A stretch of 64,000 nt of DNA, taken from assembly GCF_004114915.1 (NCBI RefSeq), contig NZ_CP022219.1:5300501-5364500 (forward strand), in the 5' to 3' direction. Both the position numbers and the translations under genes were made by a program. The notes below the pieces were generated by a model. That model was not told the origin of the DNA, made no database searches, and saw only the letters and a program-made list of their open reading frames with translations. Shown in pieces: positions 12,040 through 27,917 of this stretch. This DNA is from Bradyrhizobium guangxiense (lineage in GTDB: Bacteria > Pseudomonadota > Alphaproteobacteria > Rhizobiales > Xanthobacteraceae). Position 1 is the stretch's first letter. Each line of letters opens with the position of its first letter.

Positions 12040-14709
12040 CTACTTCACCTTCCCCGCCAGCTTCTTCATCGCGGCCTTGATCGATGTAGCCGCATCGTCA
12101 TAGCCCTCCCAGGCCTTGGACCGCGCTAACAGGCCCGGCACCGTCCGCAGCGTGTATTTCTTCGGATCGAGATCGTTCTTCACCTGCGCCCAGGTCAGCG
12201 GCATCGACACCGTGGCACCGGCGCGCGCCCGCGGCGACAACGGCGCCACCGCCGTCGACATGCGGTCGTTGCGGAGATAGTCGAGGAAGATTTTTCCGTT
12301 GCGCAGCTTCTTCGACATGTTGAGCAGGTAGCGTTCCGGATCGTCATCGGCCATCCACTGACAAACGCCTTGCGCAAATGCCTTGGCCTCCTTCCAGCTC
12401 ACCTTGTCGCGCGCGCCGTGGCGCAGCGGCACCACGACGTGCAGCCCCTTGCCGCCCGTGGTCTTGCAGAAGCTGTCCATGCCGATGTCGGGGAGCCGCT
12501 GCCGCATCTCCTTGGCGGCTTCGACCACGTCGGCGAATTCGACGTCGGGCGCGGGATCGAGATCGAACACCAGCCGACCCGGCGTGTCATAGGCATAGGG
12601 TGCGCAATTCCAGGGATGCAGCTCGACGCCGCCGATCTGCGCAACAGCCGCGAGCCCTTCGATCCGGTCGATCTGCAAGTACGGCTTGCGATCGCCGGAG
12701 ACCCTCGCGAGCTCCAGAAGGTTCGACGTCCCCTGCATGGCATGGCGCTGGAAGAAGCATTCGCCCTTGATGCCGTCAGGCGCGCGGATCAGCGAGCATG
12801 GCCGGCCCTTGAGGTGCACGATCATCCATTCGCCAACGGCTTCGAGATAGCGGGCCAGGTCCAGCTTGGTGATGACGCCACCATCGCCGTCGTCGGGCCA
12901 CAGCTCCTTGTCCGGCTTGGAGATGACGACACCCATCACTTCAGCGGTGCCGGCGTCCTTCGATCGCCTGGCCGTCTTCACGGCGCGCTTGCCAGCCGTG
13001 GGCTCGGCGAGCTCGGTGTCGGCGGGTGTCTCCGCCTGGACCTCCTCGGCAGGCTTGTCCTGCCGCAGGCCCTTGAACGCGGCCTGGCGGATATTGCCGT
13101 CGGCGGTGAAGCCGGCGAACTCGATCTCGGCGACGAGCTCCGGCTTCAGCCAGTGCACCTCGCGGGTCTTCTTTGGCGCGTTCTTGCCGCCGAAGGGACT
13201 TTCCTTGGCGGCCATCGCCTTCAGCGACGGCATGATGCGCTTGACCTTGTCAGCGCCGAAGCCGGTACCGACCATGCCGACGAAGACGAGATGATCGCCG
13301 CGCTGCACGCCGGCCATCAGGGAGCGGAATTTTCCATTGGTGGTCTTGTAGCCGCCGATCACCACTTCGTGGCCAGCGCGGCATTTCGACTTGACCCAGC
13401 TCTCGGTGCGACCGGAGCGATACGGCGCATCCAGCTTCTTCGACACCACGCCTTCCAGCTCGAGCTTGCAGGCCGATTGCAGTACGGCATCGCCGCCGCT
13501 CTCGAAATGCTCGACATAGCGGATCTGGCTCGATTTCCGCTTGCGGGCCTCCAGCAGCTTCTTCAGGCGCGCCTTGCGTTCGCCAAGCGGCAGCCGGCGG
13601 TAGTCCTGTCCTTCGGCGAACAGCAGGTCGAAGGCGAAGAAGATCAGCTCGCTGGTCTTGCCGTCCGACAGCGCGGCCTGAAGCGAGGAGAAGTTCGGCG
13701 CACCATTATGGTCGAGCGCCACGATCTCGCCGTCGATCATGACGTCCGAAAGCGACGCCGCTTCCTTCGCGATCGCCGCGAACTTCTCGGTCCAGTCGAG
13801 GCCCTTTCGCGTCTTCAGCGTCGCCTCGCCGTTCTCGACACGGAGCTGCACCCGGTAGCCGTCGAACTTGATCTCGTGGCACCAACCCTCGCCGGCCGGC
13901 GGCCGCTCGACCAGCGTACAGAGCTGCGGTGCCACGAAGTCCGGCATCTCCGACACCTTCCTGGCATTCGTCGCGGTCGTCGCCTTCTTCCTCGCCGACT
14001 TGACGGCCTTCAAGGCCGTTCGCGGCGCCGGCTTGACGGTGCGCCCTTTCGCTTCCTCCACGCGGTTCGATTGCCAGACAGCATCGGCCTTGCCCTTGGC
14101 ACCCTTCGCCAGCATGAACGGCTTGGGCGCGCGGCCCTTGCCTTCGGCGATCTGCTCCATGGCGCGGCCGGAGGCGACCGACCTGTCCTGGTCGAGGATG
14201 TCGTTGTCCTTGCCCTCGCGGACATATTCGTCGCGATGCTTGATCAGCAGCCAGTTGGTTCGCTTTTCGCCGCCGCGGTTGCGCATGCGCACCAGCACCC
14301 AGCTCCCCTGCAGCTTGTCGCCATGCAGGGTGAACTTCAGATCGCCCTTCTTGAAGCCGGCTTCTGGATCGTCCGACTCCCAGGTGCCGCGGTCCCACAG
14401 CATCACCGTGCCGCCGCCATACTGGCCTTCCGGAATCGTGCCTTCGAAATCGCCATAGTCGAGCGGGTGGTCCTCCACCTCGACCGCCAGGCGCTTGTCG
14501 TGCGGATCGAGCGAAGGCCCTTTCGTCACGGCCCAGGACTTGAACACGCCGTCGAACTCGAGCCGGAGGTCGTAGTGCAACCGGCTCGCATCGTGCTTCT
14601 GGATCACGAAGCGCCGCTGCTTCGATGGCGCGACTGCTGTCTTGCCCGATGGCTCCGGCGTCTTCTCGAAGTCGCGTTTCTGTCGGTAAGTGGAGAGTTT
14701 CTGCAGCAC
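12040..14709 (-). CDS. ligD: ATP-dependent DNA ligase LigD (phosphoesterase-ligase-polymerase)
   Basis: This 889-residue multidomain enzyme processes and seals double-strand breaks in bacterial non-homologous end joining. The N-terminal 3'-phosphoesterase spans about residues 30-190 ([19 protein letters not shown]). A linker leads to the ligase domain with adenylated Lys in EIKFDGYR (near 280), followed by an OB fold. The C-terminal primase/polymerase domain has the metal-binding pair in VFDLDPAPD (near 718). A basic, low-complexity linker lies near residues 225-255. The start appears to be GTG at 14709, with no strong SD. It is divergent from ku over 116 bp. Confidence 0.95.
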
Positions 14710-14763
14710 GACCGGTCCCGCTTCTCTTTCAGCATTGAGCCTATCACGGCCAAAGTCCCGTCC

Positions 14764-14788
14764 GGAACCAAAACCCTGTGGGATGGTT
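14764..14788 (+). promoter_or_regulatory. Candidate EcfG-type promoter upstream of ku
   Basis: GGAAC (14764-14768) is followed after 16 bp by GGTT (14785-14788), one mismatch from the EcfG consensus GGAAC-N16/17-CGTT. It lies about 40 bp before the ku start in the ligD-ku divergent region. In Sinorhizobium some ku/ligD genes are controlled by the equivalent sigma factor RpoE2, which makes this plausible. Confidence 0.35.
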
Positions 14789-14825
14789 GGGGTTCCAAAA
14801 CGTCTTGAAAACGCTGGAGAATGGA

Positions 14826-15710
14826 ATGGCCCCGCGCGCCTACTGGAAGGGAACGTTGAAGCTGTCGTTGGTCAGCTGTCCGGTCGTGCTGTATCCGGCG
14901 ACCACGGCGGCCGAGAAGACGCGGTTTCACCTGATCAACCGCGAGACCGGCAACCGGCTCAAGCAGCAGATGATCGATTCGGAGACCGGCGACGTTGTCG
15001 AGAGCGACCAGAAGGGCCGCGGCTACGAGTTACGGAAGGGCAAATATGTCGAGATCGAGCCGGAAGAGCTCGAGGCGGTCCAGATCGAAAGCAACCACAC
15101 CATCGACATCGAAAGCTTCGTGCCAAGCGAGGAGATCGACCAGCGCTACCTCAGCCATCCCTATTACATCGCGCCCGACGGCAAGGCCGCGGTCGACGCC
15201 TTCGCGGTGATCCGCGACGCCATGAAGGACCAGGAGCGCGTGGCGCTCGCCAAGATCGTGCTCACGAACCGCGAGCACGTCATGGCGATCGAGCCGCTCG
15301 GCAAGGGTCTGCTCGGCACCACGCTGCGCTTCCCCTACGAGCTGCGCGACGAGGACCAGTTTTTCGGCGACATCAAGAGCCCGAAGATCACCAAGGACAT
15401 GGTCGAGCTCGCCGGCCACATCCTCCACAGCAAGGCCTCGCATTTCGATCCGGGCAAGTTCAAGGACGAGTACGAGGATGCGCTGAAGGCGCTGGTGAAG
15501 CGCAAGGCCAGCGGCAAGAAGATCGAGCTGCCCGAGCGCGAGGAACGGCCGAGCAACGTCGTCAGCCTGATGGATGCGCTGAAGCAGAGCCTGAAGGGCC
15601 GCGGCGGCAAGAAGACGGCGGCAAAGTCGCACGCGCGCCGTGCGCCCGGGCGGCGGCAAGCCGCGCGGAAGACGCACCGGGCCGCGACGAGGCATCGGAA
15701 GGCGGGTTAG
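14826..15710 (+). CDS. ku: DNA end-binding protein Ku
   Basis: Ku binds double-strand DNA ends as a homodimeric ring and recruits LigD. The ATG at 14826 has GGAGA just upstream and gives the typical start [20 protein letters not shown]; an earlier in-frame ATG adds 16 unsupported residues. The protein is 294 residues with the bacterial Ku core ([27 protein letters not shown]). The last 40 residues are a Lys/Arg-rich tail, a feature known to modulate DNA binding in bacterial Ku. It is divergently paired with ligD. Confidence 0.95.
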
Positions 15711-15832: not shown

Positions 15833-16522
15833 TCATTCCCCCGCCTTCAGCCGGTACCCGATCCCGGTCTCCGTCAGCACATATTGCGGCCGCTCCGGAT
15901 CGGCTTCGATCTTCTGGCGGAGCTGGCGGACATAGACGCGCAAATATTGCGCATCGGTCAGCTCGTCCCAGAGCTCCTTGAGCAGGAAGCGGTGGGTCAG
16001 CACCTTGCCGGCGTGCTGCACCAGCACGCGCAAGAGATCGTATTCCTTCGGCGACAGCTTCACGTCCCGCTCGCCGACCTTGACGATGCGACGGACGAGA
16101 TCGACCGAGAGATCGCCGGTGCGGAACACCGGACGCTCGCCCTTGACCTGGAGCTGGTGGCGCAGTGCGGCGCGCAGGCGGGCCAGCAACTCGTCCATGC
16201 CGAACGGCTTCGTCAGATAGTCATCGGCGCCGAGATCCAGTGCCTGGACCTTGCCGGCCTCGTCGCCGCGGCTCGACAGCACCACGATCGGCACGGCTTC
16301 GTTGCGGGCACGGATGGTGCGCAGCAGCTCATGGCCCTGTATGTCGGGCAGACCGAGATCGAGGATGATCAACGCCGGATGCTCCTCAAGCTTCTCCAGC
16401 GCGGTCTTGCCGCTCGACGCTTCCAGGATTTCGTAGCCTTGCGTCGTGAGCCCCATCCGCAGCAATTTGCGGATCGGCGGCTCGTCGTCGATGACCAGCA
16501 CCTTGATCGGGGCAGCACTCAT
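15833..16522 (-). CDS. kdpE: Potassium-responsive response regulator KdpE
   Basis: This is a 229-residue OmpR-family regulator. The receiver domain has the acidic pocket IDDE (residues 11-14), the phosphorylated Asp55 in IILDLGLPD and the conserved Lys in LTKPF. The C-terminal winged helix (about 130-228) ends QYVLTETGIGYRLK. It is phosphorylated by KdpD and activates kdp transcription under potassium limitation. Its ATG overlaps the kdpD stop by 4 bp. OmpR-family proteins bind direct repeats with 11-bp period, which is relevant to the repeats at 24319-27039. Confidence 0.95.
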   Translation of the reverse strand: MSAAPIKVLVIDDEPPIRKLLRMGLTTQGYEILEASSGKTALEKLEEHPALIILDLGLPDIQGHELLRTIRARNEAVPIVVLSSRGDEAGKVQALDLGADDYLTKPFGMDELLARLRAALRHQLQVKGERPVFRTGDLSVDLVRRIVKVGERDVKLSPKEYDLLRVLVQHAGKVLTHRFLLKELWDELTDAQYLRVYVRQLRQKIEADPERPQYVLTETGIGYRLKAGE

Positions 16523-19242
16523 GCGGCGGTATCCAATGCGTGGGTCTCTGCCGGAACGGGAAGACGGATGGTGAGGACGGCGCCGCTGCGGTCGCTGCGG
16601 TTGGCGGCCGAGATCGTGCCGCGCATCGCCTCGACGAAGCCGCGTGAGATGGCAAGCCCGAGCCCGGTGCCGGGCCGGACGTGATCGCCCTTCTGCACGC
16701 GATAGAACTTGTCGAACACGCTCTCGAGCTCGTCGGGCGGAATGCCGCCGCCTTCGTCGGCGACCTCCAGCACGACCTGATCGCGCTCGCGCCTGCTCTT
16801 GATCGAAATCGTGGTGTCCGGCGGCGAGTATTTCGCCGCATTGTCCAGCAGGTTGAACAGCACCTGCTCGAACAGGACGGCATCGAGCTGGAGCATCGGC
16901 AGATCGGCCGCCAGCACCAGCTCGACCTTGTGGGCGGTCAGGATCTTGCTCGCGCGGCGGAGCGCGCTGCCGACGATCTCGCCGAGATCGTGCAATGCCG
17001 TATTGGGCACGATCGCGCCGGATTCGAGCTTGGTCATGTCGAGCAGGTTGGCGATGAAGCGGTTGAGCCGCTCGGATTCGTCGATCACGGTGGCGAGCAG
17101 GTCGCGCTTCTCGGTGTCGGAGAGGGCTCCGGCGAGATCGCGCATGGTCGAGGCCGCGCCCAGCACCGAGGCGAGCGGCGTCTTGAGGTCATGCGAGATC
17201 GAGGTCAGGAGCGCCGCGCGCAAGCGCTCGGATTCGACGGTGCGCTTGACGCGGTCCATGTCCTCGACAAGCAGCACGCGCTCGATCGCAAGCGCCCCCT
17301 GGTCGACCAGCGCGTCGAGCAGGCGACGCTGGTCCGGCGTCAGCAGCGGCCCGGTGCGGTCGTTGTCGATGCCGATCACACCGATCGAACCCCGCCCGGT
17401 CCGCATCGGCAGGAACAGCCGTTTCGCACCCGGCAGCGTGTCGGAGCCGCGGCCTGCGGGGCGGTCGTTGCTCCAGGCCCAGTTGGCCGCGGCGAGGTCA
17501 GCCTGGTCGAGCTCGTCCTCCGGCGGATAGCCGGATTTGACCATGAGCAGGCCTTCCTCCGGCAGCAGCAGCACCACGCGAACCTTGAGCATCAGTGCGA
17601 TCTGATAGGCGGTCGCCCACAGCACGTCGTCGAGCGTGGCCGTGCCGGCCAGCTTGCGGCTGAAGGCGTAGAGCTGCTCGTTCATCCGGATCCGGCCGAT
17701 CGCCGCATCCGCCTGTGTGCGCACGCGCGCCGCGACATTGGACACGATCATCGCCACCACCATGAACAGGACGAAAGCGGCAACGTTGGTCGGATCGGTG
17801 ATCGTGAAGGTGTAGATCGGCGGCAGGAAGAAGAAATTGTAGCAAAGCGAGGCCGTGACGGTGGCGAGCAAGGAGGGCCACAATCCGTACCGCACCGCGA
17901 CCGCGACCACGGCCGTGAGCAGCACGAGGTCGACGTTCTCGATGCCGAACCTCGGCTGAAGCAGCTCCGCCGCGCCGAGACCGACCAGCACGATGCCGAG
18001 CGCCTTGAGATAGGGCAGCGGATTGAACGGCTCGGATCGTGCCGCGGTCTGCACCGCCGCTTTGGGCGCCACGCCTCCGGACAGCTCGTCGCCAGGGATG
18101 ACGTGAACGCTGATATTGCCCGCGCGGCGCACCAGATCATGCACCACCGAGCCGCGCGTCATCTCGAACCAGCGCGAGCGGGTCGACTTGCCGATCACGA
18201 TCTGGGTGACGTTGTTACCATGGGCGAAGTTGACGACGTCGTCCGCGATGCGGCGGCCGACGGCGGGAATGGTCAGGGCCTCGCCACCCAGCGACTCCGC
18301 GAGCCGCAGCGTATCGGCCAGCCGATCGCGCTCCTCGTCGGACAATTGCAGCGATCGCCGGGTCTCGATCGAGATCGCGGTGAAGGGCGCATGCAGCCGG
18401 TCGGCCAGCCGCTTGGTATAGCGCACCAGGCCTGCAGCACGCGGATCCTCGCTGACGCACACCAGGATGCGCTCGCCCGCGGCCCACGGGCCGGCAATGG
18501 CATTGGCCTGCATGTGGTTGAGCAGCTGCTCGTCGACCCGCTCGGCCGTCCGCCGCAGCGCGAGCTCGCGCAGCGCGGTCAGATTGCCCGGCGAGAAATA
18601 GTGCTCCAGCGCACGCTCGGCCTGCCTGGGGACATAGACCTTGCCCTCCTTCAAACGCTGGATCAGATCGTCGGGCGTGAGGTCGATCAGCTCGATCGCG
18701 TCGGCGCGGTCGAACACGGAGTCGGGGACCGTCTCGCGCACGCGAACATGGGTGATCTGCGCGACGACGTCGTTCAGGCTCTCGATGTGCTGGATGTTGA
18801 CGGCGGTGTAGACGTCGATGCCGTGCGACAGCAGCTCCTCGACGTCGAGATAGCGCTTGGGATGGCGACTGCCGACCGCATTGGTATGGGCGAGCTCGTC
18901 GACCAGCGCGATCTGCGGCCGGCGTGCGATCACGGCGTCGAGATCCAGCTCTTCGACGATCTGGCCGCGGTAATCGAGCCGCTTGCGCGGCACCACTTCC
19001 AGCCCCCGCACCAGGGCCTCGGTCTCGGCCCGGCCATGGGTCTCGACGAAGCCGACCACGACGTCGACGCCGGCCTTGCGCTTGGCGTGGGCGCTTTGCA
19101 GCATCTCGTAGGTCTTGCCGACGCCGGGAGCGGCGCCGACGAAGATCTTCAGCCTACCGCTTGCGCTCTCCTCCCGGCGCGCTGCTTCCAGCAGTGCCTC
19201 GGGAGAGGGACGTTGTTCGGAATCGCGGCGCTCTCGGACCAT
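16519..19242 (-). CDS. kdpD: Sensor histidine kinase KdpD
   Basis: This 907-residue sensor controls the Kdp system in response to potassium and turgor. In order it has the KdpD domain with Walker A motif GAAPGVGKT (36-44), a USP-like domain (about 250-370), four membrane helices (about 405-500), a GAF-like domain (about 520-650), the phosphoacceptor helix SISHDLKTPLASVLG (His near 682) and an HATPase domain with N box LLDNAAKYSP and G box GTGLGLAIS. Length and architecture match full-length KdpD. It follows kdpC by 40 bp and overlaps kdpE. Confidence 0.96.
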   Translation of the reverse strand: MVRERRDSEQRPSPEALLEAARREESASGRLKIFVGAAPGVGKTYEMLQSAHAKRKAGVDVVVGFVETHGRAETEALVRGLEVVPRKRLDYRGQIVEELDLDAVIARRPQIALVDELAHTNAVGSRHPKRYLDVEELLSHGIDVYTAVNIQHIESLNDVVAQITHVRVRETVPDSVFDRADAIELIDLTPDDLIQRLKEGKVYVPRQAERALEHYFSPGNLTALRELALRRTAERVDEQLLNHMQANAIAGPWAAGERILVCVSEDPRAAGLVRYTKRLADRLHAPFTAISIETRRSLQLSDEERDRLADTLRLAESLGGEALTIPAVGRRIADDVVNFAHGNNVTQIVIGKSTRSRWFEMTRGSVVHDLVRRAGNISVHVIPGDELSGGVAPKAAVQTAARSEPFNPLPYLKALGIVLVGLGAAELLQPRFGIENVDLVLLTAVVAVAVRYGLWPSLLATVTASLCYNFFFLPPIYTFTITDPTNVAAFVLFMVVAMIVSNVAARVRTQADAAIGRIRMNEQLYAFSRKLAGTATLDDVLWATAYQIALMLKVRVVLLLPEEGLLMVKSGYPPEDELDQADLAAANWAWSNDRPAGRGSDTLPGAKRLFLPMRTGRGSIGVIGIDNDRTGPLLTPDQRRLLDALVDQGALAIERVLLVEDMDRVKRTVESERLRAALLTSISHDLKTPLASVLGAASTMRDLAGALSDTEKRDLLATVIDESERLNRFIANLLDMTKLESGAIVPNTALHDLGEIVGSALRRASKILTAHKVELVLAADLPMLQLDAVLFEQVLFNLLDNAAKYSPPDTTISIKSRRERDQVVLEVADEGGGIPPDELESVFDKFYRVQKGDHVRPGTGLGLAISRGFVEAMRGTISAANRSDRSGAVLTIRLPVPAETHALDTAA

Positions 19243-19282: not shown

Positions 19283-19888
19283 CTACCTGGCGGCGGCGCG
19301 GTCGAGCGCGAGGTTCAGCGCCAGAACGTTAACCCGGGGTTCGCCGAGCACGCCGAGAAGGCGGCCTTCGGTGTTGGCGGTCACAAGCTGCTTGACCTGC
19401 TCTTCCTGCATATTCCGCGCCTTCGCGACGCGCGGCACCTGGAATTGCGCGGCTTCCGGCGAGATATCTGGATCGAGCCCGCTCGCCGAGGTGGTGACCA
19501 GATCGACCGGCACCGCCGCGTTCGGGTTCTCCGCCTTCAGCTTGTCCACATCTTCCTTCAGCCGGTCGGCCAGCGCCTTGCTGGTCGGCCCCAGATTGGA
19601 GCCGCCCGAATTGGCGGCATTGTAGGGCGCCGACACCGTCTTGCTCGAATCGTTCGGGTCAGGCGCAACCGTCGCCGAGGGACGGCCGTGGAAGTATTTG
19701 TCGTCCTTGAATTCCTGTCCAATCAGGGCGGAGCCGACGACCTTGCCGTCCTTCTCGATCAGGCTGCCTTCGGCGCGCGCGGGAAACAGCGCGCCGGCGA
19801 TGGCGGTCATCGCCAGCGGATAGGCAAGGCCGGTGATGGCGGTGAGCGCCAGCAGGAGGACGATGGCGGGGCGGATTTCTCTGAGCAT
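19283..19888 (-). CDS. kdpC: Potassium-transporting ATPase subunit KdpC
   Basis: The 201-residue protein has one N-terminal membrane helix ([20 protein letters not shown]) and a periplasmic domain with [17 protein letters not shown], the KdpC signature. KdpC stabilises the KdpFABC complex. I chose the ATG at 19888, which has GGAGA upstream and gives [12 protein letters not shown]; the frame stays open 22 codons further upstream but runs into a palindromic repeat. It is separated from kdpB by 155 bp containing that repeat. Confidence 0.95.
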
Positions 19889-20043: not shown

Positions 20044-22158
<2,115 letters not shown>

Positions 22159-22183: not shown

Positions 22184-23887
22184 TCAGAACACTTGGCCGG
22201 CGTTCATCGCGAGCTGCTCGACGATGGGACCGAGCGCGAGCGCCGGGAAGAATGTCAGGCCGCCCATGATCAGGATCACACCGACGACGAGACCGACGAA
22301 CAGGCCCCCGGTGGTCGGGAACGTGCCCATCGACGGCGGGATCGATTTCTTGGCGGCGAGCGAGCCCGCGATCGCCATCGCCGGGACGATCATCAGGAAA
22401 CGGCCGACGAACATCGCGGATGCGCCCGTCAGGTTATAGAACAGGGTGTTCCCGGTCAGACCTGCGAAGGCCGAGCCGTTGTTTCCCGTCTGCGAGGAAT
22501 AGGCATAGAGCACCTCCGAGAAGCCATGCGGACCGGCGTTCGCCATCGAGGCAACGCCCGTGGGCAACACGACCGCCATGGCCGCCCAGCCCAGGATCAT
22601 CAGCGGCAAGATCAGGATTGCGAGCATCGCCATCTTGACTTCCCGTGCCTCGATCTTCTTGCCGACATATTCCGGCGTGCGGCCGACCATCAGCCCCGCG
22701 ACGAAGATCGCGAGGATGACGAACAGCAGCATGCCGTACATGCCGGCGCCGACGCCGCCGACGATGATCTCTCCCAACTCCATGTTGATCAGCGGGATCA
22801 TGCCGCCGAGCGCGGTGAAGCTGTCATGCATGGCGTTCACGGCGCCACATGAGGCAGCGGTGGTGATCACGGCGAACAGCGAGGAAGCTACAATGCCGAA
22901 GCGGACTTCCTTGCCTTCCATGTTGCCGCCGGTCAGCCCCAGCGCCTGCAGCGTCGAGGTGCCCTGGGCTTCCGCCCAGTAGGCGACGGCCACGCCGGCG
23001 ACGAACAGCACGCCCATCACGGCGAGGATCGCCCAGCCCTGGCGCTGGTTACCGACCATGCGCCCGAACACGTTGGTCAGCGCCGCGCCGAGCACGAAGA
23101 TCGACAGCATCTGCACGAAGTTCGAGAGCGCGGTCGGGTTCTCGAACGGATGCGCCGCATTGGCGTTGAAGAAGCCGCCGCCATTGGTGCCGAGCATCTT
23201 GATCGCGACCTGGGATGCCACCGGGCCGACCGCGATGGTCTGCTTGGCGCCCTCGAGCGTGGTCGCCTCGATATACGGCCCAAGCGTCTGCGGCATCCCC
23301 TGCCAGACCAGGAACAGCGTGAACACGACGCAGATCGGCAGCAGGATATAGAGCGTGCAACGGGTCACATCGACCCAGAAGTTACCGACCGTGCGCATGG
23401 ACGCGCGGGCAAAGCCGCGGATCAGGGCAACCGCGAGCACGATGCCGGTTGCTGCCGACAGGAAGTTCTGGTGCGTCAGGCCGACCATCTGGGTCAGGTA
23501 GGACAGCGTGCTTTCGCCGCCGTAGTTCTGCCAGTTGGTGTTGGTGATGAAGGAGATCGCGGTGTTGAAGGACAGATCCTCCGCGACCGCGGACTGACCG
23601 GCCGGGTTGAAAGGCAGCACTGACTGCAGGCGCATCAGCCCGTAAATGATGAGAAAGCCGCCGACATGGAACAGCAGCATGGCAACCGTATAGGTCAGCC
23701 AATGCTGCTCGCGCTTCTCGTCGACGCCGGAAATCCAGTAGATGCCGGCCTCGATGGGCCGCAGAACCGGCGAAAGGAACGTGCGCTCGCCGTTGAAGAC
23801 ACGCGTCATGTAGCCGCCGACCGGCTTTGTCAGCGCGACGATGATCGCGCAGTAGAGTATGATTTGGAGCCAACCGATCACAGTCAT
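22184..23887 (-). CDS. kdpA: Potassium-transporting ATPase channel subunit KdpA
   Basis: This 567-residue, roughly ten-helix membrane protein forms the K+ pathway of the pump. The four pore-loop repeats are recognisable in [44 protein letters not shown] and [11 protein letters not shown]. Length matches the family (about 557-570). It begins with ATG at 23887, 112 bp after the kdpF stop, and is followed by kdpB after 25 bp. Confidence 0.97.
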
Positions 23888-23999: not shown

Positions 24000-24089
24000 T
24001 CAGAACCGCTCGGGCCGCAGCAGCGCGTAGGTGAGATAGAACAGCAGGCCGAACGAGACGGCGCCGGCGAGTGCATAATCGAAGATCAT
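24000..24089 (-). CDS. kdpF: Potassium-transporting ATPase subunit KdpF
   Basis: This 29-residue single-helix peptide reads MIFDYALAGAVSFGLLFYLT followed by YALLRPERF. The ending LxYALLRPERF and the position just upstream of kdpA are diagnostic of KdpF, which stabilises the pump in the membrane. It is too short for most gene callers. A 12-bp gap separates it from the peptide gene at 24102-24185. Confidence 0.92.
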   Translation of the reverse strand: MIFDYALAGAVSFGLLFYLTYALLRPERF

Positions 24090-24101: not shown

Positions 24102-24185
24102 TCACAGCCGTTCGCAGGCATAGGTGTAGCCGATGGCAAGGGCAAAGAAGCCGAAGCCCAGCGCCAGCATCAGAATGTCCATCAT
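24102..24185 (-). CDS. 27-residue membrane peptide heading the kdp operon
   Basis: The peptide reads MMDILMLALGFGFFALAIGY then TYACERL. It is a single hydrophobic helix with a short charged end, and it is preceded by a strong AAGGAGG 5-11 bp before the ATG at 24185. It is the first reading frame after the kdp promoter region, 12 bp before kdpF. Similar tiny peptides ending in an ACxRL-like tail occur upstream of kdpF in other bacteria, to my recollection. It may be an extra small subunit or a regulator of the pump; no function is established. Confidence 0.75.
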   Translation of the reverse strand: MMDILMLALGFGFFALAIGYTYACERL

Positions 24186-24318: not shown

Positions 24319-24367
24319 CATAGGTTTTCGAGATGAGGCCTATGGCGATGTTATAGGAATCTCATAA
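24319..24367 (-). promoter_or_regulatory. Shared promoter architecture, kdp copy (candidate KdpE box)
   Basis: On the minus strand TTATGA (24367-24362) begins TTATGAGATTCCTAT. TATGA and TATAA half-sites are 11 bp apart. CTCG begins 35 bp and CCTATG (a possible -10) begins 43 bp after the first T. The first kdp reading frame starts 134 bp after that hexamer. Three other copies in the window share these distances exactly. KdpE as the binder is inference from location and repeat period. Confidence 0.65.
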
Positions 24368-24400
24368 AGGCGAGCGGCGATGCTCGCTCAAGCCTCCGCC

Positions 24401-24543
24401 GTCGTCCCGGACAAGCGCGCCTCAAGCGCGCGCCGATCCGGGATCCATAGCCACAGGGGATGGTTTGACGAAGACTCGTGGTGACGAGCTTTTGACGGCA
24501 ACTTCTTCCTGGAGTTATGGGTCCCTGCGTTCGCAGGGACGAC
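24401..24543. repeat. Dispersed intergenic repeat, 143 bp
   Basis: The element starts GTCGTCCCGG (24401-24410) and ends CAGGGACGAC (24534-24543), giving 8-bp perfect inverted ends. It contains two internal palindromes: GCGCGCCTCAAGCGCGC and GTCCCTGCGTTCGCAGGGAC. This is a typical Bradyrhizobium intergenic element, from general knowledge. It separates the two divergent promoters. Confidence 0.7.
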
Positions 24544-24578
24544 AGCGGCGAATGACGCACCACCACCCCCACTCACAC

Positions 24579-24627
24579 TTATGAAATCCCTATATCTCTC
24601 GCCCAATCCCCCTCTCGTTTTCAAATG
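24579..24627 (+). promoter_or_regulatory. Shared promoter architecture, copy upstream of 24690 gene
   Basis: TTATGAAATCCCTAT (24579-24593) has TATGA and TATAT half-sites 11 bp apart. CTCG begins at 24614 (offset 35) and CAAATG at 24622 (offset 43). The downstream gene starts at 24690, 99 bp after the second half-site. Of the four copies this one has the weakest -10-like hexamer. Confidence 0.6.
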
Positions 24628-24689
24628 CTTTTGAGGGCCATCTTGGCAACGCCGGCCGACTGACCGACGCCAACTCCAGGAGGCCTGAC

Positions 24690-25157
24690 ATGACCGCCGT
24701 TCTCCGACGCCTCGCCCCGCCTTCCCTCAGTCAGCAGCTTCGCGACACGGCTGCGATGACGCGGCCGTTGATGCTCGACATCATCGCGCAGGCCTGCCGG
24801 CGCTATCCCTCGCTCGGCCAGAGCGAGCGCACCGCGCGCATCATGCGCCTGATCGACGCCGAGGCCTGGGCCGACGCGGCGCTGGGCCTGCTGGAGCTCG
24901 AGCTGCCGCTATGGCAGGTCCGCCGCATCGCGTATGACGAGGGCGAATGGCATTGCGCCCTGTCGCGCGAGCGCGAGCTGCCGGACTGGCTGGATGAAGC
25001 GGTCGAGGCCCACCACGCCGACCTCGCACTCGCCCTTCTGTCGGCCCTCGTCGAGGTCAGGGCTGTGACTGCCGAGGCGCCGCGGCCGAGCGTTCCTTCC
25101 GTAGGGCCCGTGCGCGATCCGCTCTACGAGCCGATTGCCTGCGACAATTTCGGCTAG
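24690..25157 (+). CDS. Conserved hypothetical protein, 155 aa
   Basis: I do not recognise a family. The protein is soluble-looking and helical, rich in Leu, Ala and Arg, with an acidic middle and a Pro-rich C-terminal tail. A strong CCAGGAGG lies 5-12 bp before the ATG at 24690, which supports it as a real gene. It is the first gene after the promoter at 24579-24627 and is followed by a small membrane protein. It may belong to a potassium- or stress-related regulon (inference). Confidence 0.7.
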   Translation: MTAVLRRLAPPSLSQQLRDTAAMTRPLMLDIIAQACRRYPSLGQSERTARIMRLIDAEAWADAALGLLELELPLWQVRRIAYDEGEWHCALSRERELPDWLDEAVEAHHADLALALLSALVEVRAVTAEAPRPSVPSVGPVRDPLYEPIACDNFG

Positions 25158-25197
25158 AGCGGCCCGACGGATCGAAGCCGTGTCGCAAGCTCCGGAC

Positions 25198-25476
25198 ATG
25201 CCGCGCACGCTGAAGGCGTCGCGCGTGATTGCACGGTTCACCGTCCGCGTCGCGTTGCTGGTCGGCTTCGCCGCGTTCGGCAGCGTCGGTTTCGGCCGAA
25301 GCCTTGCGGTGCTGCTTTGGATGTCGATCATCCTGTGCGCCCTCGCCGGCCTCGTCAGGCGCGAGCCGCTGTTTCGCACCTCGCTCAATCATTGGGACGA
25401 AGCCGCCGCCTTCGGCGCGCTGTTCGCGCTGGTCCACATCGCCAACGACCTGACCTCCGAGCAGCCGGCTTTATGA
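25198..25476 (+). CDS. Small hypothetical membrane protein, 92 aa
   Basis: The protein has two hydrophobic stretches, VALLVGFAAFGSVGF and LAVLLWMSIILCALAGLV, and ends HIANDLTSEQPAL. The frame opens from a TTG at 25135 inside the previous gene; I prefer the ATG at 25198 (MPRTLKASRVIARF), though its SD is weak. It probably shares a transcript with the 24690 gene, 40 bp upstream. Its stop codon lies inside the next promoter motif (25471-25485). Function is unknown. Confidence 0.55.
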   Translation: MPRTLKASRVIARFTVRVALLVGFAAFGSVGFGRSLAVLLWMSIILCALAGLVRREPLFRTSLNHWDEAAAFGALFALVHIANDLTSEQPAL

Positions 25477-25519
25477 GCTTCCTATGAGATCGGCGCGCAC
25501 CCGCCCTCGAAATCATATT
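25471..25519 (+). promoter_or_regulatory. Shared promoter architecture, copy upstream of 25595 gene
   Basis: TTATGAGCTTCCTAT (25471-25485) is followed by GAGATCGG; TATGA occurs at 25472 and 25483, an 11-bp direct repeat. CTCG begins at 25506 (offset 35) and CATATT at 25514 (offset 43). The GTG start at 25595 is 112 bp from the second half-site, close to the 99 and 106 bp seen for the other two rightward copies. Confidence 0.65.
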
Positions 25520-25594
25520 CGCGACTGCGGATATTGAGCGCGCCGGCAGGAACGAATGCGTCTCAGGCCGGCGCCGTTCAGAAGGAATAAAGCC

Positions 25595-25849
25595 GTGAAA
25601 CTCGTCGAACCTCCCTCGTGCAGCTCGCCTTCCGCCATTGTCTTCATCGGTCGCAATCGCCGGGGACAATGGGTCGCTCAGGAACAGAATGGCCTCTATG
25701 GCGGCCTGTTCGTCAGCCGCGCCCAGGCGATCAAATATGCGCTGTTCGAGAACGGGCAGCATCCCGAGACCATCGTCGAAACACCGCGCGAAATTGAGCT
25801 CGACATGGCCAAGCGCCCCAGCACCAACATCTCGCAACGCGCCGCCTGA
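25595..25849 (+). CDS. Small conserved protein, paralogue of the 27315 gene
   Basis: The core IFIGRNRRGQWVAQEQNG then LYGGLFVSRAQAIKYA matches the core of the protein at 27315-27704 (FFIGRNRAGLWVAREANG, GGLFLLKSSAIDFA). Both then end in an (E)xELD(M/I) segment. The layout, a short beta hairpin followed by an AI..A helix, recalls DUF2188-type domains, but I cannot confirm membership. I chose GTG at 25595 because GAAGGAATAAAG precedes it; an ATG at 25556 would add 13 residues. It leads into the DapA-like gene 24 bp downstream. Confidence 0.65.
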   Translation: MKLVEPPSCSSPSAIVFIGRNRRGQWVAQEQNGLYGGLFVSRAQAIKYALFENGQHPETIVETPREIELDMAKRPSTNISQRAA

Positions 25850-25873
25850 GCCGACGCCTTACGGTGAAGCACA

Positions 25874-26791
25874 ATGTTCACCCCTCCTTCCGCCTGGTTC
25901 ACCGGCTTCATTCCGGACCTGCCGACGCCGTTCGATGCGGCGGATGCGGTCGACCTCACGGCATTTGCCGCACTGTGCGAGCGGCAGATCGCGGCAGGCC
26001 TTCCCGCCATCGTGGTTTGCGAGACGGCCGGCGAGGCGTCGACACTCTCGCCAGCCGAGCAGGAGCTGGTCATCCGTACCGCAGTCGATGTCGTGCGCGG
26101 CCGCGTGCGGGTCATTGCAGGCGCTGTGTCCAATGCAACCAGCCACGCCATCGAACTGGCGCGGCGCGCGGAGGACGCCGGCGCCGACGCCGTCATGGCG
26201 GTGGTCCCGGCCTATAACAAGCCGATGCAGGAGGGGATGCTCGCGCATTTCCGCGCCATCGCAGGGGCGACCGGACTGCCCGTGATCCTGCACGACGTCC
26301 CGTCCCGCACGCTGCGCCCGCTCGCCGACGAGACGCTCTTGCGTCTAGTGGAGTCCCGCTCGTTCGTGGGTCTGCGCGACGGCAGCGCCGACGTCACCCG
26401 TCCTATGCGCCTCGCCCGCCACCTGCCGGCCGGTTTCCGCTTTCTGTCCGGCGACGACGCCACGGGCTTCGCCTACATCGCGGACGGCGGCGATGGCGCG
26501 ATTTCTGAGGTCGCCAACATCGCGCCGGATCTCTGTCGCACGATCTTTTCGCAGGTCAGGCAGGGCCGCCTGCAATCGGCGCGCTACCTCCACAGGCGCC
26601 TGATGCCGCTCATCGGCTGCCTGTCCAGGGAAAGCCCGGCGGCGCTCAAATTCGCATTGAGCGTCCTAGGCCTGACGTCTGCCACGACGCGGCTTCCGAT
26701 CGTGCCGCTGAGGCCGGCTGCGCAGAGAGAGGTGGTACGTGCCTTCGCCGCGATCGCCGACGAGGAATTGATCGACGGTGTCGGGGCCTGA
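25874..26791 (+). CDS. DapA/NAL superfamily protein lacking the Schiff-base lysine
   Basis: This 305-residue protein has the dihydrodipicolinate synthase/N-acetylneuraminate lyase fold: CETAGEASTLS replaces the GTTGE loop, VPAYNKP keeps the catalytic Tyr (Tyr114) and ILHDVPSRT matches the VPxRT block. The position of the Schiff-base Lys, normally in a VGIKE-type motif, reads VGLRDGS, so Lys is replaced by Arg168. It therefore should not perform standard class I aldolase chemistry. It lies inside the small-gene cluster behind the 25595 gene, away from lysine biosynthesis genes. A substrate cannot be named. Confidence 0.85.
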   Translation: MFTPPSAWFTGFIPDLPTPFDAADAVDLTAFAALCERQIAAGLPAIVVCETAGEASTLSPAEQELVIRTAVDVVRGRVRVIAGAVSNATSHAIELARRAEDAGADAVMAVVPAYNKPMQEGMLAHFRAIAGATGLPVILHDVPSRTLRPLADETLLRLVESRSFVGLRDGSADVTRPMRLARHLPAGFRFLSGDDATGFAYIADGGDGAISEVANIAPDLCRTIFSQVRQGRLQSARYLHRRLMPLIGCLSRESPAALKFALSVLGLTSATTRLPIVPLRPAAQREVVRAFAAIADEELIDGVGA

Positions 26792-26816
26792 CGCGTCGAG
26801 GCCAGCCGGATACCGC

Positions 26817-26996
26817 ATGCCGATGTCGACCGATGATTCTCACAAGCTGCTCCGGGCCTGGCAGCTGGCGCTGCTGCGCTTTGCCGTGGCCGTCGGGCTC
26901 ACGCGCTCAAAGCCTGCGCCCGCTCAGGCCGGACGGCCGAAGCGGAACCCCAATCTGTTCAGAGGACTGCCCGCGCGAGGATCGGCGTCCTTATGA
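26817..26996 (+). CDS. Small hypothetical protein, 59 aa
   Basis: The frame encodes MPMSTDDSHKLLRAWQLALL followed by a short Arg/Ala/Pro-rich tail. A helical segment (KLLRAWQLALLRFAVAVGL) may be amphipathic. SD support is weak. In its favour, it starts 25 bp after the DapA-like gene and its stop sits inside the next promoter motif (26991-27005), just as the stop of the 25198 gene sits in the preceding one. Existence is plausible, function unknown. Confidence 0.4.
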   Translation: MPMSTDDSHKLLRAWQLALLRFAVAVGLTRSKPAPAQAGRPKRNPNLFRGLPARGSASL

Positions 26997-27039
26997 CTTT
27001 CCTATGCGGTCGCCCCGGCGCCCATCTCGCAATCCTACG
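26991..27039 (+). promoter_or_regulatory. Shared promoter architecture, copy upstream of 27109 gene
   Basis: TTATGACTTTCCTAT (26991-27005) is followed by GCGGTCGCC. Half-sites TATGA (26992) and TATGC (27003) are 11 bp apart. CTCG begins at 27026 (offset 35) and CCTACG at 27034 (offset 43). The next gene starts at 27109, 106 bp after the second half-site. It also resembles the 25471 copy beyond the core (CTCGnAATCnTA). Confidence 0.65.
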
Positions 27040-27108: not shown

Positions 27109-27297
27109 ATGTCGATCCTGACACATGGTCTTGACCAGCCCTTCCAGGCCGAACGTCCGGCGCACATCTCCGAGGCGCGCAAGGCCCAACTCAAGCGCAT
27201 CGCGCTCCAGGCGTTTGCCCTGCTCTCGATGGGCAGCGTGCTCACCGCACTGATTGCGCTCAGGACCGCGATCTATGTCTGGCGCCTCCACACCTGA
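27109..27297 (+). CDS. Small single-helix membrane protein, 62 aa
   Basis: A basic, soluble N-terminal half (ARKAQLKRIALQAFALL) leads into a hydrophobic segment MGSVLTALIALRTAIYVW and a short RLHT end. AAGGA lies about 10 bp before the ATG at 27109. It is the first gene behind the shared promoter at 26991-27039 and is followed 17 bp later by the 27315 gene. I recognise no family. Confidence 0.6.
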   Translation: MSILTHGLDQPFQAERPAHISEARKAQLKRIALQAFALLSMGSVLTALIALRTAIYVWRLHT

Positions 27298-27314: not shown

Positions 27315-27704
27315 ATGACCTTGCAGATGTGTGAGGAAGCCGCCATGGTCGCAATCGCTCTTCAAGCGGCGCATCGCCGGTCCGAGCCGAGGCTGCCGGC
27401 GGCGGCACCCAAACCGCTCGATCCCGACGTCCTCAGCGCCGCCATTCCAGCCTTCTTCATCGGACGCAATCGCGCCGGCCTCTGGGTCGCACGCGAGGCA
27501 AACGGCCGCGTTGGCGGCCTGTTCCTGCTCAAGAGCTCGGCCATCGACTTCGCCAATCGTCACAGCGCGCCGGACCGTTGCGCGCTGGTGTTTCCCACCG
27601 AGACCTTCGAGCTCGACATCGAGAACCGCGGCAATCCGCTGATCAGGCTGGCGGAGGCAGCGCGGCGGCGGCTTGCGCGCGTGACCATGAGGCCGCTGAC
27701 ATGA
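27315..27704 (+). CDS. Conserved protein, paralogue of the 25595 gene
   Basis: The 129-residue protein carries FFIGRNRAGLWVAREANG and GGLFLLKSSAIDFA at about residues 51-84, shared with the protein at 25595-25849, and then the FELDIENRG segment. The N-terminal 45 residues and the Arg-rich C-terminus (RRRLARVTMR) are not shared. AGGAAG lies about 8 bp before the ATG at 27315. Its TGA overlaps the ATG of the next small gene. The pair looks like a duplication within the cluster; function is unknown. Confidence 0.65.
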   Translation: MTLQMCEEAAMVAIALQAAHRRSEPRLPAAAPKPLDPDVLSAAIPAFFIGRNRAGLWVAREANGRVGGLFLLKSSAIDFANRHSAPDRCALVFPTETFELDIENRGNPLIRLAEAARRRLARVTMRPLT

Positions 27705-27790
27705 TCGAGCTCAAGATCGCCATCCTGGCTGCGTTGATGGGTGCATTGCTGCTCGGCATGCGCTTCGGCGCAACACCTGCGGACAAGTAG
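27701..27790 (+). CDS. 29-residue membrane peptide
   Basis: The frame reads MIELKIAILAALMGALLLGM then RFGATPADK, a single hydrophobic helix with a short polar tail. Its ATG overlaps the stop of the 27315 gene (ATGA), which suggests translational coupling. The next peptide gene begins 1 bp after its stop. No family is recognised. Confidence 0.5.
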   Translation: MIELKIAILAALMGALLLGMRFGATPADK

Positions 27791-27791
27791 C

Positions 27792-27917
27792 ATGCAACTC
27801 AAGGCAAATCTCGAGCACGCGGTCACCACCACCGTCCTGACCATGACGCTGAGCATGGTCTGGGGCGCCATCCTGACGATCGTGATCACGCTCGTAGCGC
27901 GCGGGGTCGGGGTCTAG
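27792..27917 (+). CDS. 41-residue membrane peptide
   Basis: The frame encodes MQLKANLEHAVTTTVLTMTL followed by SMVWGAILTIVITLVARGVGV, a largely hydrophobic helix after a polar N-terminus. It begins 1 bp after the stop of the 27701 peptide. Its own stop shares the CTAG with the end of the degraded frame on the other strand (27914-28027). It closes the 27109-27917 group. Confidence 0.5.
   Translation: MQLKANLEHAVTTTVLTMTLSMVWGAILTIVITLVARGVGV

Follow-up and report, generated by a model that had tools for sequence, protein, structure and literature searches.

A candidate KdpE regulon in Bradyrhizobium guangxiense: four promoter-like elements of one layout may link kdpFABC to an adjoining small-protein gene cluster

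We analysed a 64,000-nt stretch of Bradyrhizobium guangxiense DNA (contig NZ_CP022219.1; genome size 8.2 Mb), hereafter the window, which holds the kdpFABC operon, the genes for the sensor kinase KdpD and the response regulator KdpE, and an adjoining cluster of genes for small proteins and a DapA-like protein. Four elements of one fixed layout lie there, one before kdp and three within the cluster. We propose that each is a KdpE-activated promoter and that kdpFABC and the cluster would be induced together by potassium shortage, a reading to which we assign a probability of roughly 85%. Sequence comparison indicates that KdpE is very likely the binder of the boxes and that the cluster probably belongs to the Kdp regulon as an arm not characterised before. 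The new content would be a predicted regulon wider than kdp and a rigid promoter matched to its regulator; we found no earlier description of the element, the cluster or such an arm in the literature searched. The small proteins carry labels coined in the present analysis (sA155, sB92, sC84, sD59, sE62, sF129, sG29 and sH41).

A first-pass annotation of this DNA had described four copies of TTATGAnnTYCCTAT, with CTCG at offset 35 and a CnnAnn hexamer at offset 43, and all four were recovered where it had placed them. To compare promoters we used a 20-position score (YTAYR at 0 and +11, TYY at +8, TCG at +36 and TAYG at +45), a pattern devised after the promoters had been seen. The kdp promoter element (24319..24367, minus strand; score 20/20) has half-sites at 24367-24346 (TTATGAGATTC CTATAACATCG), CTCG at 24332-24329 and CCTATG at 24324-24319. 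The other three are on the plus strand. That of sA155 (24579..24627; 19/20) has its box at 24579-24600 (TTATGAAATCC CTATATCTCTC), CTCG at 24614-24617 and CAAATG at 24622-24627. The element before sC84 and the dapA-like gene (25471..25519; 19/20) has its box at 25471-25492 (TTATGAGCTTC CTATGAGATCG), CTCG at 25506-25509 and CATATT at 25514-25519, and that of sE62 (26991..27039; 20/20) has its box at 26991-27012 (TTATGACTTTC CTATGCGGTCG), CTCG at 27026-27029 and CCTACG at 27034-27039. Spacing between the second half-site and the three cluster genes likewise agreed with the annotation (99, 112 and 106 bp; box-to-start 111, 124 and 118). The hexamer is present at offset 43 in all four, but an NTAYG-like description fits it better, with exceptions such as CAAATG. 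Two of the boxes overlap coding sequence: TTATGA at 25471-25476 forms a Leu codon and the stop codon of sB92, and TTATGA at 26991-26996 forms the last Leu codon and the stop codon of sD59.

The elements are confined to this locus. With up to two mismatches allowed, the core matched four times in the window, every match being exact; 100 dinucleotide shuffles of the window gave a mean of 0.34 matches, and none reached 4. Across the genome no exact match beyond these 4 was found; single-mismatch and two-mismatch matches numbered 1 and 37. Because this total of 42 equals the level of a reversed control pattern (44), the inexact matches are chance-level. The full architecture, allowing up to three mismatches, was found genome-wide at the same 4 elements only (control, 0). 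All four exact cores of the genome thus fall within 2.7 kb, one before the kdp operon and three in the small-gene cluster. Scatter over the genome had been named beforehand as an outcome that would speak against a promoter class; the scan gave a single cluster. An Rfam search of the region at the gathering threshold returned no match.

The architecture is conserved in other genomes. We scored the 700 bp ahead of kdpA at 106 kdp loci in 104 genomes: 101 loci reached at least 17/20, and each of these also exceeded the best of 50 shuffles (single-base, not dinucleotide); 4 of 1065 unrelated upstream regions, each of 350 bp, scored at least 17. Twenty loci and most of another set had been picked from pattern matches, and many further genomes placed by KdpD already held a match, so that the rate among loci of the Arg197 KdpE lineage described below is biased upward; 20 other loci were picked by KdpD in genomes without a clear match. 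In a set picked by sA155, comprising the best 80 of 180 by alignment and possibly overlapping in species with the other genomes, upstream regions scored at least 17 for kdp in 77/77, sA155 in 79/79, sC84 in 55/56 and sE62 in 51/61 cases. The titles in this set named 77 Bradyrhizobium, one Bradyrhizobiaceae, one Hyphomicrobiales and one Frankia. Among the fetched loci, which cover several genera, we observed the architecture before kdpFABC and before relatives of sA155, sC84 and sE62. A score of at least 16 was reached upstream of 37/38 sA155 relatives (35/38 exceeded shuffles) and 34/48 sC84 relatives; some low-scoring sC84 genes sit directly behind sA155 or sB92 (loci L120 and L185).

In the family, 85/198 genomes had a pattern match at up to two mismatches, some of which look like chance or unrelated shared sequence. 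A class-wide scan at up to one mismatch found matches in 26/289 genomes and gave ten loci, three of which contain the kdpA start. The match lay 311 nt before kdpA in G325 (0 mismatches), 283 nt before it in G296 and about 1 kb before it in G211; in G375 (0 mismatches) the distance was 351 nt, again upstream of kdpA. The kdp promoter of R. leguminosarum scored 20/20, and those of S. meliloti and Acetobacter scored 18. This conservation in the family, before kdp and before relatives of the same small genes, supports the annotated view that the elements form a real promoter class. The three further copies lie so close to the kdp promoter (within 2.7 kb) that they could also be local duplicates of it that carry no regulatory meaning. 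We give this very little credence, as boxes are kept before sC84 where the fetched stretch holds no kdp (19/25 score at least 16) and before sA155 relatives that are merely 40-50% identical, and as the spacers vary while box and spacing stay constant. The sC84 gene lies apart from kdp in several genomes, and in G066 about 1.7 Mb separates the two boxes.

The promoter letters co-vary with KdpE. Two KdpE lineages were distinguished, one with YLRVYVRQLRQ or a near variant in the recognition helix (Arg at E. coli position 197; the window and S. fredii) and one with Gly at that place. The flanking residues R193 and R200 matter for DNA binding by E. coli KdpE (PMC3264566). We observed that Arg197 loci mostly carry TTATRRRATTC YTATA.. 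with CTCG, and that the tendency at Gly197 loci is towards TTAYGCCGNCT TTAYGCCG and ATCG. Position +35 is C at 60/60 Arg197 loci compared to 0/31 Gly197 loci (A at 31/31), +7 is A at 58/60 compared to 1/31, and +44 is T at 9/60 compared to 31/31; these counts omit 10/106 loci not assigned to the Arg or the Gly type and 5 Gly197 loci scoring below 17. By this comparison the letters follow the regulator and not KdpA, because the split persists among loci whose KdpA proteins are at least 75% identical (+35 C, 56/56 Arg197 and 0/14 Gly197, with A at 14/14; +7 A, 54/56 and 0/14). The loci do not count as independent cases: in quick trees of the 91 rows, the +35 base needs a single change on that of KdpE and three on that of KdpA. 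Boxed sC84 promoters had A at +35 in 5/7 cases in Gly197 genomes compared to 0/25 in Arg197 genomes, and sA155 promoters in Arg197 genomes had it in 1/34 rows.

Co-inheritance would equally yield such co-variation if another OmpR-family regulator, or one inherited with KdpDE, bound the box and KdpE were merely its neighbour. Two loci with orphan boxes, L107 and L114, do encode KdpE-like paralogues (50-51% identical). We nevertheless judge a different binder improbable: the box letters track the recognition-helix lineage of KdpE itself, the half-sites are like those published for E. coli KdpE, and S. fredii KdpE binds its own kdp promoter.

The direct repeat of 11-bp period that had been annotated is clear in Gly197 relatives, where repeat identity is 0.71 at spacing 11 and at most 0.36 at other spacings from 7 to 16, but weaker in the window's own box type (0.46 at 11, 0.41 at 13). 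We rejected an inverted repeat as the principal description on the clean direct repeats of the Gly197 boxes; for the window's box type that description may apply. Similar to the Gly197 boxes, the E. coli KdpE site before kdpF is an 11-bp direct repeat (PMC3264566; structures 4kny and 4kfc), and the regulator family is common to both systems. The E. coli half-sites read TTTATA and TTTACA, 5 bp apart and within -72 to -50 (PMC3264566). The two TTTAYG copies of the Gly197 form resemble them, as do TTTATG and CCTATA in the kdp box of the window. In the published logo both half-sites start with two invariant T's (PMC3264566), which the Gly197-form half-sites keep. Scored by our pattern, the E. coli kdp promoter reached 14/20, with the half-sites present and the downstream TCG/NTAYG block absent.

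The closest experimental case is S. fredii CCBAU 45436, whose KdpE (65% identical to that of the window) binds the kdpFABC promoter in an electrophoretic mobility shift assay (PMC9239096). We observed that this promoter carries CTATAGAAATC CTATTTCTTTC..CTCG..TTTATG (18/20); the reported binding is for probes of the promoter, which may include the box, and the word 'motif' is absent from the main text of that paper (PMC9239096). In Mycobacterium smegmatis a 22-bp KdpE site activates kdpFABC, like the role proposed here, but in the portion of the paper available it is A-rich, has a SigF-type core promoter and is discussed for kdp alone (PMC5401905). E. coli KdpE had been described with kdpFABC as its sole target, and adeP, uxaA and uxaC are proposed in that source as additional direct targets (PMC7657598); none of these is among the genes of the present cluster. 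A box also precedes a gene for another potassium transporter in one genome, G005, where a 20/20 match lies 133 nt before Kup (PF02705, E 1.4e-175). KdpE had been put forward as the obvious candidate binder; because of the lineage co-variation, the likeness to the E. coli half-sites and this single kup box, it now stands as a well-supported candidate. A Kup gene as a regular member of the regulon was ruled out, as a box was found in 1 of the 30 kup loci opened.

We propose that KdpD senses potassium shortage and that KdpE would then bind as a dimer to the tandem half-sites (YTAYR-N6-YTAYR; 11 bp each, head to tail), bringing RNA polymerase to a core element whose TCG (+36) and NTAYG-like letters (+44) stand at a constant distance from the box. 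KdpE would thereby act as an activator rather than a repressor, and kdpFABC and the cluster would come on together. If T45-A46 served as -12/-11, the box would span approximately -57 to -36 and sit closer than the E. coli site by roughly one helical turn; this start is only a guess, because a standard RpoD promoter contains nothing that corresponds to CTCG/ATCG. An alternative sigma factor might instead recognise the element as its -35/-10 pair, with no activator site involved. The fixed spacing and the strongly conserved NTCG-N5-NTAYG block would suit such a pair, no RpoD-like TTG-N16-18-TATA was apparent by eye in the logos, for which no dedicated scan was run (consensus as given in PMC4842269), and in Caulobacter kdpF is reported to have a sigma-T promoter upstream of it (PMC8552747). 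The clean 11-bp tandem repeats of Gly197 genomes, the tracking of KdpE by the letters and the small number of genomic copies, four being few for a sigma regulon, make this highly improbable. A TGGCA block at +56 to +60, just 3' of the core, is conserved in window-type kdp promoters, but we did not see it in the three small-gene promoters of the window; a sigma-54 reading of it was weighed by eye and dropped.

That CTCG/ATCG co-varies with KdpE suggests that the regulator makes a further contact there. In a rival reading, the letters at +33 and +44 would be a second KdpE box in helical phase with the first, at 3 and 4 turns from it, with the core promoter located elsewhere. This fits the co-variation at +35 and +44, including the T at +44 that separates 9/60 from 31/31 loci, and the +44 element looks like a half-site. 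Such a site would be degenerate in the window's type, with no TAY at +34; most sA155 promoters have CAAATG-like letters at its place, and downstream we saw no other core element common to all promoter classes. A two-box layout therefore seems unlikely to us, and KdpE activation through one box and a fixed core is preferred. A more ambitious picture, on which we are evenly divided, is that Bradyrhizobium and its relatives have a multi-unit KdpE regulon with a rigid blueprint, in which sites and core (possibly two boxes) form one composite read by KdpE and tuned by a single residue of the recognition helix (Arg197 or Gly197), and which commands a potassium-starvation module of small proteins and a DapA-derived pseudoenzyme.

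Several observations weigh against KdpE-activated promoters. Few independent events lie behind the co-variation (1-3 tree changes), and a plain model of box plus sigma factor does not predict that +35 and +44 co-vary with KdpE. The sC84 promoters of two Gly197 genomes (G065 and G197) retain C at +35, and the sA155 promoter of the Arg197 genome G124 carries A at that position. The architecture is missing from 5/106 kdp loci, all Gly197, and from the kdp promoters of Azospirillum (13) and Novosphingobium (15), the Methylocystis score of 17 merely equals that of its best shuffle, and 14/48 sC84 genes score below 16 within 350 bp. Of the kup loci opened, 29/30 score at most 14, and in the mobility shift assay the KdpE of S. 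fredii bound neither kup nor trkA (PMC9239096). The E. coli site is at -72 to -50 and has no TCG/NTAYG block at fixed distance. The second half-site of the window's kdp box, CCTATA, departs from the T's that are invariant in the published E. coli logo, and the window-type box also has the look of an imperfect palindrome, with a score of 0.62 over 9 pairs.

The kdp genes all lie on the minus strand. The predicted binder KdpE (15833..16522), an OmpR/PhoB-family response regulator, has the recognition helix YLRVYVRQLRQ with the Arg at E. coli position 197. Its best PDB match is E. coli KdpE (4kny, E 3.4e-60), and its best NCBIfam model is KdpE at 223 bits, under the cut-off of 325. KdpD (16519..19242; PF02702, E 4.6e-101) likewise has KdpD as its best NCBIfam model, under the cut-off. 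The kdpC (19283..19888) and kdpB (20044..22125) open reading frames (ORFs) stand in an operon order that is conserved in the fetched loci; kdpA (22184..23887; TIGR00680, 780 bits) and the 29-aa kdpF (24000..24089; NF011342) are above cut-off. The first gene past the kdp box, preceding kdpF, is a 26-aa hydrophobic ORF (MDILMLALGFGFFALAIGYTYACERL; 24102..24182), which has no family in NCBIfam or Pfam and could be an overlooked Kdp subunit. By pattern search, a similar ORF lies upstream of kdpA in 150/189 kdp loci, including those of S. fredii, R. leguminosarum, Azospirillum and Methylocystis; the pattern did not find it in S. meliloti or Acetobacter. The R. leguminosarum plasmid gene table, which is incomplete, lists no gene at its place.

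The cluster genes lie on the plus strand. First come sA155 (24690..25157), a soluble protein, and sB92 (25198..25476), small and hydrophobic by hydropathy, neither with a Pfam family. The sC84 gene (25595..25849; GTG start) encodes a predicted beta-beta-beta-alpha-beta domain without a Pfam family, related to sF129 (27315..27704), the second protein with this domain type. Between them are the DapA-like gene (25874..26791), sD59 (26817..26996), a small ORF with partial homologues in relatives whose end overlaps the fourth box, and sE62 (27109..27297), a small hydrophobic protein with relatives and no Pfam family. Two hydrophobic peptides follow: sG29 (27701..27790), assigned by sequence and hydropathy, whose start overlaps the sF129 stop, and sH41 (27792..27917), assigned by relatives and hydropathy. 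Pfam and NCBIfam scans of the small proteins tested gave no family. We found 4370 homologues of sA155, of which the 120 listed were all without a name or 'hypothetical' and none had a Pfam domain, and 2637 of sC84, with a Pfam domain in none of the 120 listed. Searching the PDB with AlphaFold models of sC84 and sA155 (mean predicted local distance difference test scores 80.5 and 83.0) gave no match with an E value of 0.001 or lower. If the predicted Kdp regulon holds, its conservation would give families with thousands of homologues a testable function, and the Arg197/Gly197 switch with its matching DNA letters would be a ready case for joint change of regulator and site.

The DapA-like protein (PF00701) scores 252.7 bits against TIGR00674, above the NCBI cut-off of 206.15 for DapA (4-hydroxy-tetrahydrodipicolinate synthase), but both catalytic residues are replaced, with Arg at the place of the Schiff-base Lys of DapA enzymes and His at that of Tyr. 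A higher-scoring DapA (352.3 bits) is encoded elsewhere in the same genome. Among 32 proteins at least 46% identical (the window's included; three more distant rows excluded), the Lys is retained in 10 and the Tyr in 6. In another set of 53 relatives, whose residues were assigned by pattern, R stood at the Lys place in 44, C in 5, K in 2, S in 1 and N in 1, and the Tyr place held H in 43 and was unread in 10. These substitutions suggest that the protein is likely a pseudoenzyme or has an altered activity.

Adjoining kdpDE, at 12040-15710, are genes that we take to encode LigD and a Ku-like protein of non-homologous end joining. In several relatives (L079, L110, L111, L112 and L118) the sC84-dapA pair lies near ligD rather than kdp. 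Orphan boxes precede proteins of about 95-105 aa and of one look (YRSYLISRNQPPIVHHS type) at L079 (11316-11609), L075, L104, L110-L112, L120, L186 and L190; the one protein of this type that was tested had no Pfam family. At L104 the box stands before a frame containing a CsbD-like domain.

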